Origin: an uncultured Candidatus Pelagibacter sp.
Lineage (GTDB): Bacteria > Pseudomonadota > Alphaproteobacteria > Pelagibacterales > Pelagibacteraceae
Length of the DNA: 46,633 nucleotides
Direction: 5' to 3'
Assembly: GCA_905618895.1 (NCBI GenBank)
Contig: CAJQTA010000038.1
Span: 1-46,633, forward strand
A model generated the notes under the pieces. It was not told the DNA's origin, searched no databases, and was given only the letters and a program-made list of their open reading frames with translations. The translations under genes were made by a program, and so were the position numbers. Below, in pieces: positions 8,960 to 25,314 of this stretch; position 1 is the first letter of the stretch; each line of letters opens with the position of its first letter.

Positions 8960-8995
8960 TTGACATTACTAATTAATCGAGAAGGAGAGAGCTTG

Positions 8996-9457
8996 ATGAC
9001 AAAAGTAAATTTAGAAGTTAACGGTAAAAAAGTAAGTAAAGACGTACCAGATCATACAATCTTATCAATTTTTTTAAGAGATAATTTAAATTTAAATGGT
9101 ACTCACGTAGGATGTGATACCAGCCAATGTGGAGCATGCGTGGTTCATGTTAATGGCAAATCAATCAAAAGTTGCTCAACTTTAGCTGCAGACATTAATG
9201 GCTCAAAAGTTACTACAATAGAAGGCTTGGTTAGTGATGGAAAAATGCATCCAATGCAAGAAGCATTTAAAAAGATGCATGGACTTCAATGCGGTTTTTG
9301 TACACCAGGAATGGTCATGAGTGCAATCGATCTATTAAAAAATAAAAAAGATCCAAGCGACACAGAAATTAGAGAGTGGCTAGAAGGAAATATCTGTAGA
9401 TGCACAGGTTATCAAAATATTGTCGCTGCGGTTAAAGAAGCAGCTTCAAAAATGTAA
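8996..9457 (+). CDS. coxS: CoxS-type small subunit, 2x[2Fe-2S] of a Mo hydroxylase
   Basis: 153-aa iron-sulfur subunit of a xanthine-oxidase-family enzyme. Plant-type cluster cysteines are C40, C45, C48 and C60 ([10 protein letters not shown]...SC); the second cluster uses C99 and C102 (QCGFC) and C134 and C136 (ICRC). It carries electrons from the Mo centre to FAD in the M subunit. The start at 8996 is chosen over an upstream in-frame ATG at 8960 because a strong SD (gaaggagag, 8981-8989) lies at the right distance and family members begin here. Followed by coxL after 16 nt. Confidence 0.93.
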
Positions 9458-9473
9458 TTAAAGGAGGATTTAT

Positions 9474-11855
9474 ATGGCTAGTTTAGTAGGTTCAAGAGTA
9501 GAAAGAAAAGAAGACAAAAGATTATTAACAGGTAAAGGAAGATACACTGCTGATATCAATATTTCGAACCAAACATATGCTGTATTTGTAAGATCTCCCC
9601 ATGCAAGAGCAAAAATTAAAAAAATAGATATATCTAAGGCTTTAAAAGCCATGGGTGTTGTAGAAATTTTAACAGGAGCAGAAATTGCTACTGACAAGAT
9701 TGGCGGTTTAATTGCTGGATGGGCAATTAGAAGTGAAGATGGATCTGAGATGAAAGTTCCAGCAAATCCTCCTTTGGCAAAAGATAGTGTAAACTTCGTA
9801 GGAGAACCCATAGCTGTAGTATTTGCAGAATCTTTAGACGAAGCTAAAGCCGCTGCAGATTTAGTTAATGTTGATTATAAAGTTTTAAAAGGTGTAATCA
9901 ATACAGCTGAAGCTATGAAAGGAGAAACTATTCATGACGGAATAGAAAAAAATCTTTGTTATGATTGGTTATTGGGTGACAGAAAAGCTGTTGAAGAAGC
10001 TTTTGCAAAAGCTGATAAAATTATAAAGGTAGACTTAATTAATAACAGATGTATTCCCAATGCAATGGAACCTAGAGCTTGTGTTGTGGATTACAATACA
10101 GCATCAGAAGAAATAACCTTATATACAACTAGCCAAAACCCACATCTTTCTAGGTTGATAATGTCTGCATTTGGTGGGGTAGCACCTGAAAATAAATTAA
10201 GAGTAGTTGCACCAGATGTTGGAGGTGGCTTTGGATCAAAAATTAATGTTTATAATGAAGAAATAGTTTGTAGTTGGGCTTCCAAAAAAATTGAAAGACC
10301 AATAAAGTGGGTTGCTGAAAGAACAGAATCTTTTTTGACAGATACTCATGGTAGAGACCACGTTACCCATGCAGAACTTGCTGTAACAAATGAAGGAAAA
10401 TTTTTAGCTTTTAAAAATGAAACAATTGCAAATCTTGGAGCGTATGCAAGAGTATTTGGAACTGTTACACCAACTTATTTATTTGGACCGTGTGCGACTG
10501 GTGTATATATAATTCCGGCAGCCTATACAAATGTTAAAGCAGTGTATACAAACACTGCGCCAGTAGACGCTTATAGAGGAGCAGGAAGACCAGAAGCAAC
10601 TTACACAATTGAAAGATTAGTTGAAAAAGCTGCAATGGAACTTGGTATTGATAGAACAGAAATAAGAATGAAAAATTTTCCGACTGAATTTCCATTTAAA
10701 CAAACATTGGTTCACACAGTTGACTCTGGTGATTATGTTGCTGGACTACAAAAAGCTAAACAAATGTCTGATTATGCAGGTTTTGATGCAAGAAGAAAAA
10801 AGTCAGAGGCTAATGGGAAATTAAGAGGCATTGGAGTTTCATCTTATTTTGAAGCTTGTGGAATAGCACCTTCTGCAGTTGTTATGTCGCTAGGTTGTGG
10901 AGTAGGATTATGGGAGTCATCAGAAGTAAGATTTAATCCAACTGGACAAGTTTCAGTATTTACAGGAGCACATAGTCATGGGCAAGGACACGATACTACA
11001 TTTGCTCAAATTGCAGCAGATGAACTTGGTGTAGGACTTGAGGCAGTTGATGTAGTCCATGGAGATACAGATAAAGGAACATTTGGAATGGGAACTTATG
11101 GTTCTAGATCATTAGCAGTTGGAGGAATAGCAATTGTAAACGCATGTAGAAAAATAGTAGCCAAAGGAAAAAGAGTTGCTGCAAAAATGCTTGAGGTCAG
11201 TGAAGATGAGATAGACTTTAAAGATGGAGAATTTATTGTGTCTAAATCAAATAAAAAGAAAACAATTGGTGAGGTTGCTTTTGCTTGTTATTTACCAGGC
11301 AGTAGAGACTCTGACTTTAAATCACCATTACCTGAAGGTGAAGAGCCAGGATTAATTGAATCATCTTTTTTTGACCCAGCTAATTTTTCTTTTCCAGCAG
11401 GATCTCATATTGCAGAAGTAGAAATAGATCCAGAAACTGGTGAAGTAAAAGTTGAAAAATATACAGCTGTTGATGACTTTGGTAGAATTGTAAATCCTTT
11501 AGTTGTTGAAGGTCAAGTTCATGGTGGAATTGCTCAAGGAATTGGTCAGGCACTCCATGAAAACACAGTGTATGATGAAACAGGCCAGTTAATCACTGCT
11601 TCTTATATGGACTATACAATGCCAAGAGCAGATAATTTTCCAGATTTTAACCTAGGTTTTACTTGCACACACGCAACATCTAACCCACTTGGAGTTAAAG
11701 GTTGTGGTGAAGCTGGAGCAATCGCGTCACCACCAACAATAATGAATGCTGTAATTGATGCATTAGGTGGACAAGAGATAACAATGCCTGCAACAGCAGA
11801 AAAAGTGTGGAAGGCTTGCAAAGTATTAAAAAAAAAAAACGCTAAAGCAGCTTAA
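9474..11855 (+). CDS. CoxL-type (form II) molybdopterin large subunit
   Basis: 793-aa catalytic subunit of the xanthine oxidase/CO dehydrogenase family. The opening VGSRVERKEDKRLLTGKGRYTADI is typical. The active-site loop reads AYRGAGR at residues 366-372, which defines form II (BMS-type) CoxL; true form I CO dehydrogenase has AYxCSFR with a cysteine that binds copper. The glycine-rich segment GVKGCGEAGAIASPP near residue 741 includes the catalytic Glu. Form II enzymes are widespread in marine bacteria but a CO-oxidising role is doubtful. A strong SD (aaaggagg) precedes the ATG. Cytoplasmic; no signal peptide. Confidence 0.9.
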   Translation: MASLVGSRVERKEDKRLLTGKGRYTADINISNQTYAVFVRSPHARAKIKKIDISKALKAMGVVEILTGAEIATDKIGGLIAGWAIRSEDGSEMKVPANPPLAKDSVNFVGEPIAVVFAESLDEAKAAADLVNVDYKVLKGVINTAEAMKGETIHDGIEKNLCYDWLLGDRKAVEEAFAKADKIIKVDLINNRCIPNAMEPRACVVDYNTASEEITLYTTSQNPHLSRLIMSAFGGVAPENKLRVVAPDVGGGFGSKINVYNEEIVCSWASKKIERPIKWVAERTESFLTDTHGRDHVTHAELAVTNEGKFLAFKNETIANLGAYARVFGTVTPTYLFGPCATGVYIIPAAYTNVKAVYTNTAPVDAYRGAGRPEATYTIERLVEKAAMELGIDRTEIRMKNFPTEFPFKQTLVHTVDSGDYVAGLQKAKQMSDYAGFDARRKKSEANGKLRGIGVSSYFEACGIAPSAVVMSLGCGVGLWESSEVRFNPTGQVSVFTGAHSHGQGHDTTFAQIAADELGVGLEAVDVVHGDTDKGTFGMGTYGSRSLAVGGIAIVNACRKIVAKGKRVAAKMLEVSEDEIDFKDGEFIVSKSNKKKTIGEVAFACYLPGSRDSDFKSPLPEGEEPGLIESSFFDPANFSFPAGSHIAEVEIDPETGEVKVEKYTAVDDFGRIVNPLVVEGQVHGGIAQGIGQALHENTVYDETGQLITASYMDYTMPRADNFPDFNLGFTCTHATSNPLGVKGCGEAGAIASPPTIMNAVIDALGGQEITMPATAEKVWKACKVLKKKNAKAA

Positions 11856-11864
11856 GGAGAAATT

Positions 11865-12650
11865 ATGAAAACATTTAATTACCATGCACCAAAAGATATC
11901 AAGAAAGCATCAAAGTTAGCTTCGACTAGTTCAGCTTTTTTAGCAGGTGGAATGACAAGTATTCCATCAATGAAATTAGGCTTAGCAACGTATAAAGATA
12001 TAATTGATATAAAACATATCAAAAAGCTATCTGGAATTAAAGTAAGTGGAAAATCAGTTACAATTGGTTCGACAACCAAACATGCTGAGGTAGCAAGTTC
12101 AAAAGATGTTCAAAAAGTAATTCCATCTTTAGCAAAATTAGCAGGAGGAATAGGCGACGCACAAGTTCGAAACAGAGGCACAGTTGGGGGGTCTATTGCA
12201 AACAATGATCCTTCCGCATGTTATCCATCAGCTTGTATGGCTCTTAATGCAATAATACATACTAACAACAGAAAAATAGAAGCATCTAAATTTTTTAAAG
12301 GAATGTTTGAAACTGCATTAAAAAAAGGTGAGTTAATTGAAGCTGTTGAATTTAAAATTCCAGAAAAATCAAATTATCAAAAACATCCAAATCCTGCATC
12401 AAGATATGCAATTGTTGGAGTTTATATTGCAAAGTATAAGAAAGAAGTAAACGTAGCAGTCACAGGTGCAAAATCTTCAGTTTATATTGATAAAGATTTA
12501 TCGAAGGCTCTATCAAATAGCTTTTCATCTAAGGCTATAGAAGGAATGGAGTTAAATAGTTCAGAAATGAACACAGATATCCATGCTTCTGGAGATTTTA
12601 GAGCTAGCCTGGTAGTTACATATACTAAAAAAGCTGTTGAAGCTTGTTAG
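11865..12650 (+). CDS. coxM: CoxM-type FAD-binding medium subunit
   Basis: 261-aa FAD subunit of the same Mo hydroxylase. The first FAD motif is SSAFLAGGMTSIPSMKLG (residues ~22-39) and the second is AGGIGDAQVRNRGTVGGSIANNDPS (~93-117), both standard for the CoxM/XdhA-FAD family; a CO-dehydrogenase flavoprotein C-terminal domain follows. The family receives electrons from the 2Fe-2S clusters and passes them to quinone or another acceptor. An SD (taaggaga) lies 5 nt before the ATG. The order S-L-M is unusual compared with the M-S-L order of carboxydotroph cox operons and is often seen with form II genes. Confidence 0.92.
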   Translation: MKTFNYHAPKDIKKASKLASTSSAFLAGGMTSIPSMKLGLATYKDIIDIKHIKKLSGIKVSGKSVTIGSTTKHAEVASSKDVQKVIPSLAKLAGGIGDAQVRNRGTVGGSIANNDPSACYPSACMALNAIIHTNNRKIEASKFFKGMFETALKKGELIEAVEFKIPEKSNYQKHPNPASRYAIVGVYIAKYKKEVNVAVTGAKSSVYIDKDLSKALSNSFSSKAIEGMELNSSEMNTDIHASGDFRASLVVTYTKKAVEAC

Positions 12651-12671: not shown

Positions 12672-13001
12672 ATGGAAAATTCATTTGATGAAAAAATTTT
12701 AGAAGAAGCTCATGACTGGGTAAAAGCAAATCAAAAAGTAGTACTTGCAACTGTAATTCAAACCTGGGGATCCTCTCCTAGACCCACTGGTAGTAGAATG
12801 ATTGTAAATGAAAATGGAGATTTTTCAGGATCGGTTTCTGGTGGATGTGTAGAGTCTACTGTTGTTAGGGAATGTATTGGAATTATAAAAGACAATAAAC
12901 CTTTTAAAAAAATAGAATTTAAAGTTTCAAATGAAAGTGCATGGGAAGTTGGACTTGCTTGTGGTGGCGAAATAGCAGTTTATATAGAGCAAGTAATTTG
13001 A
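12672..13001 (+). CDS. XdhC/CoxI family, N-terminal-domain protein
   Basis: 109-aa protein corresponding to the N-terminal XdhC/CoxI domain: WVKANQKVVLATVIQTWGSSPRPTGSRMIVNENGDFSGSVSGGCVES is diagnostic, including the conserved cysteine in GGCVES and a second in LACGGE. XdhC-type proteins insert the sulfurated molybdenum cofactor into Mo hydroxylases. The NAD-like Rossmann half is encoded separately at 13141-13821. The split into two proteins is known from alphaproteobacteria; what is less usual is the small membrane ORF between the halves. Confidence 0.88.
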   Translation: MENSFDEKILEEAHDWVKANQKVVLATVIQTWGSSPRPTGSRMIVNENGDFSGSVSGGCVESTVVRECIGIIKDNKPFKKIEFKVSNESAWEVGLACGGEIAVYIEQVI

Positions 13002-13006
13002 ATCTT

Positions 13007-13141
13007 ATGATTAAAGCACATAAAAAATATATAAATTGGTGGAAAAATTTTTTAAGAATTACTGACTATAGCTTACTTTGGGTAGCTTTTATAAAAGGAT
13101 TAATTGTAGGACTATTAATTTATCATTTATTTATTATCTAA
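13007..13141 (+). CDS. Small single-span membrane protein, 44 aa, between the two XdhC genes
   Basis: ATG at 13007 gives 44 aa: a basic, aromatic N-terminus (residues 1-24, with KKYINWWKNFLR) and one hydrophobic helix (~25-44, ending in LLIYHLFII). Its TAA overlaps the next ATG as TAATG, and the upstream gene ends 6 nt before it, so it fits an operon gene perfectly. A longer in-frame start upstream at 12941 would run through the xdhC gene and is unlikely. No family is recognised. It might anchor cofactor-insertion factors at the membrane, as CoxG anchors the enzyme, but this is only inference. Confidence 0.6.
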   Translation: MIKAHKKYINWWKNFLRITDYSLLWVAFIKGLIVGLLIYHLFII

Positions 13142-13821
13142 TGAAAAAAAAACTTTTAGAACAAATTATAAAAAAAAAAAATAACAAATCTGAATTTGCA
13201 ATAATTACTAATCTCAAAACAGGAGATAGTGAAATTTTTGAAGTAGGTAAACCAATTAATAAAGATTTTAAAAAATATACAGATCAAATAAATTCTTTTT
13301 ATAAGAATAAAAAAAATGGTGTTATTGAAGATACAAATATATTTATAGAAACTTATATTAGACCGATTAAAGTTATCATTGTTGGAGCTGTTCATATAGC
13401 TCAATATCTCATTAATTATGCAAAAAGTTTAAATTTTGAAATAATTGTTATTGATCCAAGAGGATACTTCGCAACAGAACAAAGATTTCCTGGTATGAAA
13501 ATTATAAATAAGTGGCCAGATGAAGCTTTTAAAGAAATGGAAACAAATTCAAATACAGCTTTAATTGCACTAACTCATGACCCAAAGATTGATGATCCAG
13601 CATTACAACATGCGCTAAATAAAAAATTTTACTATATTGGTGCTTTAGGGAGTAAAAAAACTCATGCAAACAGAATTGAAAGATTAAAAGAATCAGGGTT
13701 TAATGAACATGAAATTAATTCAATCCATGGACCGATAGGAATTAAGCTAGGTGGAAAATCAGCTCCAGAAATAGCTTTATCTATAATTGCACAATTAGTA
13801 TCGGAGACTTACAAGGAATGA
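13141..13821 (+). CDS. XdhC/CoxI family, C-terminal Rossmann-domain protein
   Basis: 226-aa protein carrying the XdhC Rossmann domain: IKVIIVGAVHIAQYLINYAKSLNFEIIVIDPR (residues ~76-107) is the nucleotide-binding fold, followed by ALIALTHDPKIDDPAL and YIGALGSKKTHANRIERL, both diagnostic. The C-terminal GPIGIKLGGKSAPEIALSI closes the family signature. The usual GAGHI is GAVHI here. The start at 13141 is preferred to 13078 because it matches the family and overlaps the previous stop. With the 109-aa partner it should deliver Mo cofactor to CoxL. Confidence 0.88.
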   Translation: MKKKLLEQIIKKKNNKSEFAIITNLKTGDSEIFEVGKPINKDFKKYTDQINSFYKNKKNGVIEDTNIFIETYIRPIKVIIVGAVHIAQYLINYAKSLNFEIIVIDPRGYFATEQRFPGMKIINKWPDEAFKEMETNSNTALIALTHDPKIDDPALQHALNKKFYYIGALGSKKTHANRIERLKESGFNEHEINSIHGPIGIKLGGKSAPEIALSIIAQLVSETYKE

Positions 13822-14204
13822 AAAAAACATTTGGCTTTATGATGGTTGGAACAAACAATCTAACTGATTCAGAAATATTTTATAACGCAATATTTGCACC
13901 ATTAGGTCTTAGTAAAGTTTTAACTACTGAGAGATATATTGGTTACGCTCAAAAAGATAATCTGCAGGAAATAAAATTCTATATTACCAAACCTTTTAAT
14001 AAAAAACCTGCTACTTATGGCAATGGTACACAAATCTCATTTTTAGTAGACGCAAAAAAAACAGTCGAAGAATTTCATGCTATTGGATTAAAAAATGGTG
14101 GTAACAATGAAGGCTCACCAGGAATAAGATCAGGTGATTATTATGCCTATATACGTGATTTAGATGGAAATAAAATTTGTGCTTATTGTATATTAGATAA
14201 ATAA
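13818..14204 (+). CDS. VOC-family (glyoxalase/dioxygenase fold) protein
   Basis: 128-aa protein of the vicinal-oxygen-chelate fold. It opens GFMMVGTNNLTDSEIFYNAIFAPLGLSK and ends YYAYIRDLDGNKICAYC, the standard beta-alpha-beta-beta-beta end with the metal-ligand position region DLDGNK. Activity cannot be predicted. It overlaps xdhC by 4 nt and shares one base with the mocA-like gene, so it belongs to the cox accessory operon; its role there is unknown. Confidence 0.8.
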   Translation: MKKTFGFMMVGTNNLTDSEIFYNAIFAPLGLSKVLTTERYIGYAQKDNLQEIKFYITKPFNKKPATYGNGTQISFLVDAKKTVEEFHAIGLKNGGNNEGSPGIRSGDYYAYIRDLDGNKICAYCILDK

Positions 14205-14776
14205 TGATTACTGCAATTTTACTTGCCGCTGGAAAATCAAGGAGAATTCCATCAGAAAATAAATTGATTAAAATTTTTAAAGGCAAGCCTTTAATTAATC
14301 ATATTTTAAAATCTTTAATTAAAAGTAAAGTTAATAAAATTGTTATAGTGCTTGGTTATGATCATATTAAGATTAAAAAACTTCTTTTAAAAAGTAAAAA
14401 AATAACTTTAACAATAAACAAAAATTATAAAAATGGGATATCATCATCAATTAAGTCTGGTCTTAAGAAAATTACTAGAAAAAATAGAGGTTTTATGATT
14501 ACCCATTCAGATATGCCTTTTATAAAATTATCTCATATTAATAAAATTTATGTTTCATTATTAAAAAAAAATAACTTGGTACATGCAATGAAATACAAAA
14601 ACATAATAGGAAATCCAATAGGTTTTAATATTTCAGTTTTAGATAGATTTAAGAAGATAAAAGGAGATATAGGAGCAAAATACATGGTTAAAAGATTAAA
14701 AAAAGATACAAATTTTATAAATGTTACTTCTAATAAAATTTTTAAAGATTTTGATTTAAAAAAAGATTTTAATTAG
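14204..14776 (+). CDS. MobA/MocA-like molybdenum cofactor nucleotidyltransferase
   Basis: 190-aa nucleotidyltransferase. The N-terminal LLAAGKSRRIPSENKLIKIFKGKPLINHIL contains the AAGxSxR nucleotide loop and the NKL motif of MocA/MobA; THSDMPF (~100-106) supplies the metal-binding aspartate. MocA adds CMP to molybdopterin, the form (MCD) used by CoxL-type hydroxylases, so its place at the end of the cox accessory operon favours MocA over MobA. It converges on moaE with an 8-nt overlap. The protein is unusually rich in lysine and isoleucine. Confidence 0.8.
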   Translation: MITAILLAAGKSRRIPSENKLIKIFKGKPLINHILKSLIKSKVNKIVIVLGYDHIKIKKLLLKSKKITLTINKNYKNGISSSIKSGLKKITRKNRGFMITHSDMPFIKLSHINKIYVSLLKKNNLVHAMKYKNIIGNPIGFNISVLDRFKKIKGDIGAKYMVKRLKKDTNFINVTSNKIFKDFDLKKDFN

Positions 14777-15215
14777 CTTTGATAGGATTGCCTTTAAGCC
14801 ACTCACTATCTTCATTTTCGTAATGTTCTTTTTTCCAAATAGGAGATCTTTTTTTGATCTCTTCTATTATATGTCTAGATAAGACATAAGCTTGGTCTCT
14901 ATGTTTGCAAGCAACAGCGATGATAATACTTATTTCACCTAATTCTACGTAGCCTTTGATATGTTCAATAAATACAGATTTATCTTTTATATTAAGTTTT
15001 TCATCTATTTCTTTATATATTTCTTCAAAACTTTTTATAACTAACCCATCATGACTATCGTAAGTCATGCCAATAACTTTTTTATTTTCATTAATATTTC
15101 TGACAGTTCCTGTAAAAAAAATTGAAGCACCAAATTTTGATGACGCAATAAAAGTTTCTGCTGTTGAAATCTTTATTTTTTCTTTTTTAATATCAATAAT
15201 TTTAGTATGAAGCAT
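14769..15215 (-). CDS. moaE: MoaE, molybdopterin synthase catalytic subunit
   Basis: 148-aa large subunit of molybdopterin synthase, which puts two sulfurs from MoaD onto cyclic pyranopterin monophosphate. Visible marks are GASIFFTGTVRNINENKKVIGMTYDSHDGLV near residues 29-59, CKHRDQAYVLSRHIIEEIKKRSPIWKKEHY with the conserved His-Arg and lysines, and EWLKGNP at the end. It shares one base with the moaD stop, and its SD is made by the last glycine codons of moaD. Confidence 0.92.
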   Translation of the reverse strand: MLHTKIIDIKKEKIKISTAETFIASSKFGASIFFTGTVRNINENKKVIGMTYDSHDGLVIKSFEEIYKEIDEKLNIKDKSVFIEHIKGYVELGEISIIIAVACKHRDQAYVLSRHIIEEIKKRSPIWKKEHYENEDSEWLKGNPIKAN

Positions 15216-15484
15216 TAACCACCTCCTATAGGTGGAATGATACCAATTTTTTGATCTTTATTAATTTTATAATTATCATTAATTATATTATTATCTTCAG
15301 AACAAAATACTGATGTTTCTATAATTTGCTTAAAATTTTCATTACCTTTAAAATTTTGATCTAAATAATTGATTATTTCTTTTCTAAAATCTTTAATTGT
15401 TATTTTATTTTTTAGATTAAATTCTAGATGATCTTTACTACTAAATTCTCTACTTGCACCAAATAGCTCAAGTTTTATTTTCAT
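15215..15484 (-). CDS. moaD: MoaD, molybdopterin synthase sulfur-carrier subunit
   Basis: 89-aa ubiquitin-fold protein ending in PPIGGG; the C-terminal Gly-Gly forms the thiocarboxylate that donates sulfur in molybdopterin synthase. MKIKLELFGASREF is a typical opening. It follows moaC and precedes moaE in the minus-strand operon. The last glycine codons contain GGAGGTGG, which doubles as the SD of moaE (see the hairpin entry). Confidence 0.9.
   Translation of the reverse strand: MKIKLELFGASREFSSKDHLEFNLKNKITIKDFRKEIINYLDQNFKGNENFKQIIETSVFCSEDNNIINDNYKINKDQKIGIIPPIGGG
15219..15235 (-). promoter_or_regulatory. Hairpin that can mask the moaE ribosome-binding site
   Basis: On the minus strand CCACCT (15235-15230) can pair with AGGTGG (15224-15219) across a five-base loop. 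The 3' arm contains part of AGGAGGTGG, the SD of moaE. Ribosomes finishing moaD would melt the stem, which predicts tight translational coupling and a fixed MoaD:MoaE ratio. The stem is seen directly; the coupling is inferred. Confidence 0.5.
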
Positions 15485-15487
15485 AAT

Positions 15488-16034
15488 TTAAAAAATATTT
15501 TCTAAAAACTTGGGTAGTCCATCTGGATTAGTCCATAATCCACTTTTACCACCTTCTTTGATTAATAATCTAACATTATCAATTCTAAGATGTGGGTTTA
15601 CTATCTTACTAAGATCGTAGATTGTAATTAATGCAGTGTTAACTCCCATAATTGCTTCCATCTCAACACCTGTTTTAGCAACTGCAGAAACAACACAAAA
15701 AAACTTCTAATGAACTACCATCTTCATGCATAATAATTTTAGTTGCAGTGTGATCAATTGGTAGCGGGTGACACAAAGGAATTAATTCACTTGTTTTTTT
15801 AACACCCAGGACAGCAGACACTTCTGCTAAAGTAATAGGGTCGCCTTTAGGCATTTTTTTATTTTTAATTAAATCAAAAACCTCTTTTCCAACATAAATC
15901 TTACCTGACGCCAATGCTCTTCTAAACGTTTCTTTCTTTGAAGAAACATCAATCATATTAAAAGAATTTTTCTTAAATATTTCTTTAGCCCAATCTTTTA
16001 GTTTTTCATTATTTATTACTTTTAAATTTTTCAT
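15488..16034 (-). pseudogene. moaC: moaC with a +1 frameshift in a homopolymer
   Basis: Cyclic pyranopterin monophosphate synthase. The first 112 codons match MoaC (MIDVSSKKETFRRA, GDPITLAEVSAVLGVKKTSELIPLCHPLPIDH), but the reading frame then passes a run of seven T on the minus strand (15703-15697) and stops at a TAA a few codons on, giving 119 aa with a nonsense tail. Removing one T restores [20 protein letters not shown] and [11 protein letters not shown], the intact C-terminal half, ending at 15488 for 181 aa in total. Everything downstream is otherwise well conserved. It may be a sequencing or assembly error, a recent mutation, or slippage at the run. Neighbours moaA, moaD and moaE are intact. 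Confidence 0.85.
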
Positions 16035-17027
16035 TTATCCTCCTGTGCTTGATAAGTTTGTAGTGATACCTGTGTCTCCTAGCTCTAAATAATGAGACTC
16101 TTTTTTAAGATGAAGTTGTTTTATGATAAGATCTACAAGCTCTTCTTTTTGATTATCATTTTGCAAAAGATGTCGGATACTAATTCCCGTATTTCCAAAT
16201 AAACACAATCTCAAGTCACCCCTAGATGTAATTCTCAATCTATTACAAGTTTTACAAAAATCCTTAGAGTAAGGGGCAATTAATCCAAATTTACCCTTAT
16301 ATTTAGGATGAACAAAGTTTAATGCAGGACCCGCATCCTTTCCATAAGTTTGATGAACCCATTTATTTTTCTCTAAATAATCTTTAAATATCTTTGAAGT
16401 AATGTGATTTTTTTTAAAATAATCTAAATTATCACCAGTTTGCATTAACTCTATAAACCTAAAATCAATATTATTTTCTCTTATAAAGTTTCCAAACAGT
16501 TCAAAATCTTCATTAGTATCATTGATACCTTTAAGTAAAACAGCATTAACTTTTATACTTTTAAAATTTAATTTTTGTAAAATTTTTATACCCTCTAAAA
16601 TTTCTAGAAGCCTGTCATGCCCCGTTAGTTTTTTAAAGATTTCTCTATTTAAACTATCTATACTAATGTTAATTCCGTCTAAACCTGCTTCATGCAATTG
16701 TTCAGCAATTTTATCTAATTGATAACCATTAGTAGTCATTGTTACTTTAGGGATATTTGAATTCAGCTTGATATCTTTAAGAATATCAAAAAAGTCTTTT
16801 CTAACTGTTGGCTCTCCACCAGTTAGTCTTATTTTACAAACACCTAGTTCAGATAAAGCTTTTGACAGCCTTGATATCTCTTCAGCAGACATAAAACTTC
16901 TCGTATCTCCAGGATTTTTTTTGTATCCTTGAGGTAAGCAGTAAGTACACTTGTAATTACAAACATCCGTAATAGATAATCTTATATATGGAAATTTTCT
17001 TCCAAATGTATCAGTAAGTGTTTTCAT
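16035..17027 (-). CDS. moaA: MoaA, GTP 3',8-cyclase (radical SAM)
   Basis: 330-aa enzyme of the first Mo-cofactor step. The radical SAM cluster ligands are C23, C27 and C30 (CNYKCTYC); the second cluster uses C258, C261 and C275 (FCKTCNRLRITSRGDLRLC). LTGGEPTVRKD (~68-78) is the SAM-binding region. It ends in the conserved C-terminal Gly-Gly needed for activity. The gly codons and stop (ggaggataa) also form the SD for moaC, whose ATG follows at once. First gene of the minus-strand moa operon; a very AT-rich 34-bp gap separates it from the divergent phyH gene. Confidence 0.95.
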   Translation of the reverse strand: MKTLTDTFGRKFPYIRLSITDVCNYKCTYCLPQGYKKNPGDTRSFMSAEEISRLSKALSELGVCKIRLTGGEPTVRKDFFDILKDIKLNSNIPKVTMTTNGYQLDKIAEQLHEAGLDGINISIDSLNREIFKKLTGHDRLLEILEGIKILQKLNFKSIKVNAVLLKGINDTNEDFELFGNFIRENNIDFRFIELMQTGDNLDYFKKNHITSKIFKDYLEKNKWVHQTYGKDAGPALNFVHPKYKGKFGLIAPYSKDFCKTCNRLRITSRGDLRLCLFGNTGISIRHLLQNDNQKEELVDLIIKQLHLKKESHYLELGDTGITTNLSSTGG

Positions 17028-24969: not shown

Positions 24970-25314
24970 ATGAATTTTAAGTTTATTTATAAAATCTGCA
25001 CAAAGTCTGAATTGTTGGAGATTAAAAAAAAAAAAGAATATAGTGGTTCAAAAAAAGATCTAGAAGATGGGTATATTCATTTTTCAGGAGAAGATCAAAT
25101 TAATGGTACGCTTAAAAAATTTTATTCGAATCAAAAAGATTTAATTCTATTAAAAATAGATACTTTAAAACTCGATCATTTGTTATGGGAGCAGGCATCT
25201 GATGGAAATATGTTTCCACATTTATATTCTACACTTGATATATCTAATATTGTTGATGAATTTGAAATTGATTTAAGAGATGATGGTTCTCACATAGTAC
25301 CGACAAGCTTTTAA
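24970..25314 (+). CDS. DUF952 family protein
   Basis: 114-aa protein of the DUF952 family: IYKICTKSELLEIKKKKEYSGSKKDLEDGYIHFSGEDQINGTLKKFY, then LILLKIDTLKLDHLLWEQASDGNMFPHLYSTLDISNIV. The family is small, found in many proteobacteria and some eukaryotes, and has an ADP-ribosyltransferase-like fold in related groups, but the function is unknown. It is a single-gene unit with its own promoter and terminator. Confidence 0.85.
   Translation: MNFKFIYKICTKSELLEIKKKKEYSGSKKDLEDGYIHFSGEDQINGTLKKFYSNQKDLILLKIDTLKLDHLLWEQASDGNMFPHLYSTLDISNIVDEFEIDLRDDGSHIVPTSF

Follow-up and report, generated by a model that had tools for sequence, protein, structure and literature searches.

A frame break in moaC and its surroundings

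We analysed a stretch of 46,633 nucleotides (hereafter the window), which is contig C38 of a Pelagibacter (SAR11) draft genome that totals 909,685 bases over 63 contigs and is 64.56% complete. The window carries a cluster of molybdenum cofactor (Moco) genes together with the subunit genes of a molybdenum hydroxylase (Table 1). Judged by moaC, and among the best 80 of 296, its nearest relatives are SAR11 records (Candidatus Pelagibacter and Pelagibacteraceae). The moaC gene starts at 16034 on the minus strand and its reading frame is broken in a run of T. Read directly, the minus-strand letters at the break are ...TTAGAAG-TTTTTTT-GTGTTGTTTCTGCAG..., in which the seven T's extend from 15703 down to 15697. 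In the ORF opened by the start codon, the final seven residues, which follow the run, are no longer MoaC-like, and the frame entered after the run carries MoaC on to its normal stop at 15490-15488. The Pfam family PF01967 matched moaC in two overlapping pieces (profile positions 1-86 and 81-136) in two minus-strand frames, which together span the full profile and scored 86.4 and 53.9 bits against a curated cut-off of 27. Alignment of the window's moaC with 27 relatives from the genus located one surplus base at the T run, while two further runs of seven in the same gene were both intact. The sequence, the two-frame Pfam match and the alignment confirm that a one-base frame break in moaC is present in the assembly, and they agree exactly, in coordinates and description, with the first-pass annotation, which had reported a seven-base run with one extra base there.

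Table 1. Features of the molybdenum cofactor and hydroxylase region in the window
Feature	Position	Strand	Basis
Molybdenum hydroxylase subunits (2Fe-2S, Mo-binding, FAD), intact	8960..12650	+	PF01799, PF02738/PF20256, PF00941
xdhC as two ORFs (XdhC_CoxI, XdhC_C)	12672..13821	+	PF02625, PF13478
mobA-like nucleotidyltransferase, intact	14204..14776	+	PF12804
moaE, intact	14769..15215	-	PF02391
Probable moaD, 89 aa, ends PPIGGG, without Pfam hit	15215..15484	-	Position and C-terminus
moaC (cyclic pyranopterin monophosphate synthase), split by one extra base	15488..16034	-	PF01967 in two pieces; 27-relative alignment
Downstream MoaC part, +1 frame, 69 codons then stop	15488..15697	-	Profile match, frame reading
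Upstream-frame ORF, 119 aa, true MoaC to codon 112	15675..16034	-	ORF, alignment
T7 run with extra base (relatives: T6 or fewer)	15697..15703	-	Sequence, alignment, run typing
moaA, intact, 330 aa, upstream of moaC, same direction	16035..17027	-	PF04055, PF06463

The ORF following moaC is what we take to be moaD, a name given by its position and C-terminus. The two ORFs of xdhC were considered as a possible second frameshift and rejected as such, since the pair was unflagged in the break scan described below and the second part is a separate 226-aa ORF in the relatives shown. Runs of A12 were found at 11828-11839, 13170-13181 and 25024-25035, of which the first two lie in the open coxL-like and xdhC_C ORFs and would be likelier slip sites than the T7 of moaC.

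Conservation of moaC in the genus

Of the 143 genus genomes that yielded moaC, with a single match in each, 142 had an intact gene, and the window held the only broken one. These 142 (29/29, 70/70 and 43/43) include 29 MoaC-holding genus members other than the window's own genome among the first 150 genomes searched, with one match starting at profile position 5, and 113 further genomes picked for having moaA, where moaC was intact in 113/113. A second moaC was found in none of the 142 relatives, and the complete genomes G012, G082 and G443 had one copy each. A profile search of the window's own draft, from which about 35% of the genome is missing, likewise returned no second copy, so that the intact duplicate which the first-pass annotation had named as a way to make the question moot is absent from the complete relatives and from the assembled part of this genome.

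The relatives' moaC loci numbered 107, 98 of them distinct, and 181 codons were open in all 98 distinct loci. At the site of the break, the longest T run could be typed by a short motif in 95 of the 98 and was six in 51, four or fewer in 44 and seven in none. The comparison of run length with other strains, which had been proposed beforehand, therefore gave T6 as the commonest state and no T7. The exact T7 site was also found in no viral contig and, among 218 loci, only in L001 and L002, both belonging to the window. The T7 is unique to the window's genome among those searched.

We then compared nonsynonymous and synonymous differences (pN and pS) on the two sides of the break. Between the window's moaC and 107 relatives, mean pN and pS were 0.058 and 0.554 before the break and 0.050 and 0.578 after it; for random pairs of relatives, the values before and after the break were 0.058 and 0.042 for pN and 0.554 and 0.539 for pS. 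The downstream MoaC part is thus under roughly the same constraint as in genes without a break, and the earlier description of two well-conserved parts meeting at the T7 holds, with the frames joining at the run. Given normal purifying selection on both sides, the break is of very recent date or else absent from the organism.

One- and two-base breaks in other genes and genomes

To place the moaC break against a background, reference ORFs from relatives were compared with sister loci, seeking one protein carried on in another frame. The comparison covered 1.11 Mb in 80 loci and the window and yielded 18 clusters, namely the window's moaC, seven false clusters and 10 convincing breaks. The seven (L073, L074, L080:437, L091:441, L095, L099 and L103) were dropped because only three reference ORFs, extending upstream of the aligned start, supported them; L073 and L074 were checked by alignment and the other five were judged from the same references. 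By alignment, all 10 breaks were gains of one base (two in L081), eight of which lay in A/T runs; L079 has its gain in a run flanked by substitutions and L094 in a G run, these two being the less clean alignments. The affected genes were moaA (three), mobA, xdhC, an FAD subunit gene, a molybdopterin oxidoreductase, an EamA transporter, a GFO/IDH oxidoreductase and an enolase-family gene. The share of Moco or Moco-enzyme genes (7/10) is not evidence of enrichment, since the loci were fetched around moaC. All nine genomes carrying the 10 breaks have AG- names, which are presumably single-cell plate names, as do 64 of the 80 loci by our own count. In AG-390-N22, mobA and xdhC each have a one-base gain, the two being separated by about 365 bases (L091:11130 and L091:11495), and the gain at L094:2981 falls in a G7 run of a mandelate-racemase-like gene in a very AT-rich genome.

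The moaA gene, counted from the listing of matches, was present in 143 of 399 genus genomes, draft or complete, and was frame-split inside a contig in four (G084, G209, G243 and G269), all by gains. This count leaves out two 35%-identical matches (G304 and G274), a paralog and weak hits; five of the 143 genes end at contig ends, the alignments of G243 and G084 are less clean, and G269 is the genome of L081. In all, six other Pelagibacter genomes have a moaA split through the gain of one or two bases, for the most part within an A/T run (L080:7287, L081:7555, L050:355, L193, L194 and L195).

Similar breaks were found in essential genes. The mraY gene, which is needed for the cell wall, was split inside a contig in two of 132 genomes (G012 and G187), both by gains in A/T runs; G025 and G051 were partial at one end and were not inspected, and G042, G081 and G210 were partial at, or split between, contig ends. 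The frequencies for moaA (4/143) and mraY (2/132) were indistinguishable (p = 0.69), as were those for moaA and the pool of mraY and groEL (p = 0.24). The alaS gene was split in at least one of about 303 genomes (G270, where an A run has lost one base). This is a lower bound, breaks having been sought only in the 20 genomes with a partial best match and thoroughly only well inside the gene; matches were found in 352 of 399 genomes, of which 49 were judged weak by eye (E 1e-11 or worse), leaving about 303 strong ones, and an odd fragment in G396 is outside the break count. As far as was seen, no homopolymer break occurred in groEL, which contains few runs, among the 145 genomes having it (of 181 searched, 14 with partial or double matches being searched again). 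The groEL gene of G198 has a frame-changing 14-base deletion (L220, G198:C45:2660-2880), which is another sign of assembly faults, and that of G029 has a larger internal deletion (G029:C8:41360-42729, seen without alignment). Such damage to essential genes would hardly be compatible with a living lineage and suggests that the assemblies are at fault. Outside groEL, breaks were present at a background frequency whatever the importance of the gene. Draft genomes gave 16 breaks of one or two bases in all: that of the window, the 10 above, three more in moaA, mraY of G187 and alaS of G270. Of these, 15 are gains and the alaS case is the one loss, a bias that fits either source, error or real slip.

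Within the window's own genome, the window and 20 other sampled contigs (200.2 kb) were scanned, of which 79.9 kb was comparable, half of it the window and the remainder on nine of the 20 contigs. The moaC break was the only one, a frequency about the same as in the relatives' loci, and the idea of a genome riddled with errors was rejected on this ground.

The complete genomes G082 and G443 showed no one- or two-base break in the 597 kb covered, after L214 and L042 had been dropped as lying upstream of the true start, which was checked. In the draft loci with the window left out and references taken only from G012 and G082, five breaks were found in about 745 kb (the window's share having been subtracted from 781 kb by estimate), a contrast that is suggestive only (p = 0.07). 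The complete single-contig genome G012 had four breaks, two gains and two losses, in mraY, KDO-transferase, SMP-30-like and ferric-reductase-like genes (L198 = G012:C1:185200-186600, L158:4741, L169:4857 and L113:7621), L168:109 and L169:697 having been left out as ambiguous; these four are possibly uncorrected sequencing errors.

Origin of the extra base and comparison with known systems

The extra T probably comes from amplification or assembly error. One base would have been gained in a six-T run during genome amplification, sequencing or assembly and would be absent from the living lineage, in which moaC would really be intact and the molybdenum cofactor pathway would work. We favour this origin because of the background of breaks in sister assemblies, the breaks in essential genes, their absence from the 597 kb of complete sequence and the published error rate of a marine single-cell workflow. 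It also agrees with the restriction of the break to one of 143 genomes and with the unaltered pN and pS on both sides. In the benchmark passages of PMC6122165 and PMC9771814, cultures processed by a marine single-cell workflow gave 3.0 indels per 100 kb, which over 1.11 Mb corresponds to 33 expected indels, where 11 in genes were seen including the window's; such a rate would be more than enough for the breaks seen. According to the same passages, both papers retain only contigs of >2,000 bases, and the shortest of the 20 own-genome contigs sampled, at 2,019 bases, fits this cut-off, a fit that is no proof of the workflow. We infer that a single cell, processed by a workflow of the benchmarked type, was the source of the draft and that the base was gained in vitro. 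Against an error stand the missing MutS and MutL (see below), which make real slips in runs expected, the bias to gains, which such slips would also produce, the weak contrast between complete genomes and draft loci, the lack of a homopolymer break in groEL, and the four breaks of G012, which is complete and no fragmented draft.

The other readings differ in how far they place the break in the organism. A real, very recent T6-to-T7 replication slip in the lineage of the cell, a private mutation, is a possibility that we take seriously while holding it only tentatively; the slip would have gone unrepaired without MutS and MutL, and, with similar tentativeness, the cell would lack MoaC and have a dead molybdenum hydroxylase, and the mutant would not have spread. 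Neither MutS_V nor MutL_C was found in any of 101 genus genomes, the named controls being positive in 11/14 for each, and the part of PMC12374537 that deals with deep-sea SAR11 single-cell genomes reports mutS and mutL as absent from them. In a genus without these proteins, real slips in runs are to be expected and a change from T6 to T7 is plausible, all the more as T6 is the commonest state of the site. The lack of further decay is what a recent event predicts, and Moco genes are accessory in the genus, to judge by the distribution of moaA. However, other genomes carry one-base changes in A/T runs within mraY and alaS, and a living lineage would not be expected to tolerate these; the 597 kb of the two complete genomes contained none; and the T7 itself is found in one genome only. 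An old pseudogene in a lineage where the pathway is decaying would agree with the one inactivating indel, yet this has practically no likelihood: neither relaxed selection nor further lesions appear, with pN and pS little changed on either side and close to relative-to-relative values, and the adjoining moaA, moaE, mobA and hydroxylase genes are intact. The decay that the first-pass annotation had contemplated thus shows no sign beyond the single base.

A rescue by slippage, in which RNA polymerase would slip on the T7 or the ribosome would shift by +1 and restore MoaC in some products, in the manner reported from long homopolymer tracts of Blochmannia and Buchnera, might be suggested by the AT-rich genome, by the homopolymer at the exact break and by the selection on the rest of the gene. 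We regard it as very unlikely. No searched relative has the T7 or needs rescue, the relatives being in frame unshifted in 98/98 distinct loci where a programmed ribosomal frameshift would call for a conserved frame change; the rescue would need a +1 shift, or one base less in the RNA, and not the commoner -1; and the site has no stop codon. Intact genes also contain runs of seven in plenty (1,992 in 1.0 Mb of coding sequence), with no sign of avoidance, so that much slippage on them would harm such genes. In 300 sampled genes of relatives, A/T runs of seven occurred at 1.09 times the expectation from synonymous shuffling, no selection was detected against A/T runs of lengths 5 to 9 (observed/expected 0.98 to 1.19), and the ratio for runs of 10 or more was 0.71, on 22 runs. 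Equally unlikely is the wider proposal that the changes are real in living SAR11: lacking mismatch repair, these streamlined populations would constantly carry some ten private homopolymer frameshifts, mostly +1, in each Mb of genes, essential ones such as mraY and alaS included, and would tolerate them because slippage of RNA polymerase or the ribosome on short A/T runs yields product enough. Of the three readings offered by the first-pass annotation, error and a recent private mutation therefore survive, with error favoured; slippage is unsupported and wider decay is unseen.

The observation itself is correct, the event is ordinary for such assemblies and nothing points to a new mechanism. 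The moaC break should not be read, on the assembly alone, as loss of the molybdenum cofactor or as evidence of recoding. In the SAR11 draft loci surveyed, frameshifts of one or two bases number about nine per Mb covered and fall mostly in A/T runs, which makes a single broken gene a poor sign that a pathway has been lost. Were these changes real, they would show directly how mutation proceeds when mismatch repair is missing, and would do so in bacteria that are among the most abundant in the ocean.

Among known systems, the tracts of Blochmannia and Buchnera, as far as described in the relevant part of PMC3017870, resemble the window in an AT-rich reduced genome with one indel in an A/T run and no other decay. 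They differ in that the tracts of that paper are long (nine or more bases, and 11 in visC) and some frameshifts are common to species, whereas here the run is a T7, the other seven-base runs of moaC and the A12 runs of the coxL-like and xdhC_C genes stay in open frames, and the frameshift is shared by 0/142 other genus genomes with moaC. Mycobacterium smegmatis, in the portion of PMC4938668 concerned with lines lacking mismatch repair, is alike in having no MutS or MutL, in small indels that fall mostly in simple repeats and in an excess of insertions over deletions (141 of 207 small indels were insertions); those were real mutations in propagated lines, whereas here there is one draft assembly. 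The indels of single-cell short-read assemblies are set apart in that the method behind the window is not stated and that the benchmark passages give neither indel positions nor the likeness of the cultures to SAR11; they share with the moaC break a private indel in a gene otherwise intact, a frequency within the benchmark and an occurrence that extends to essential genes.
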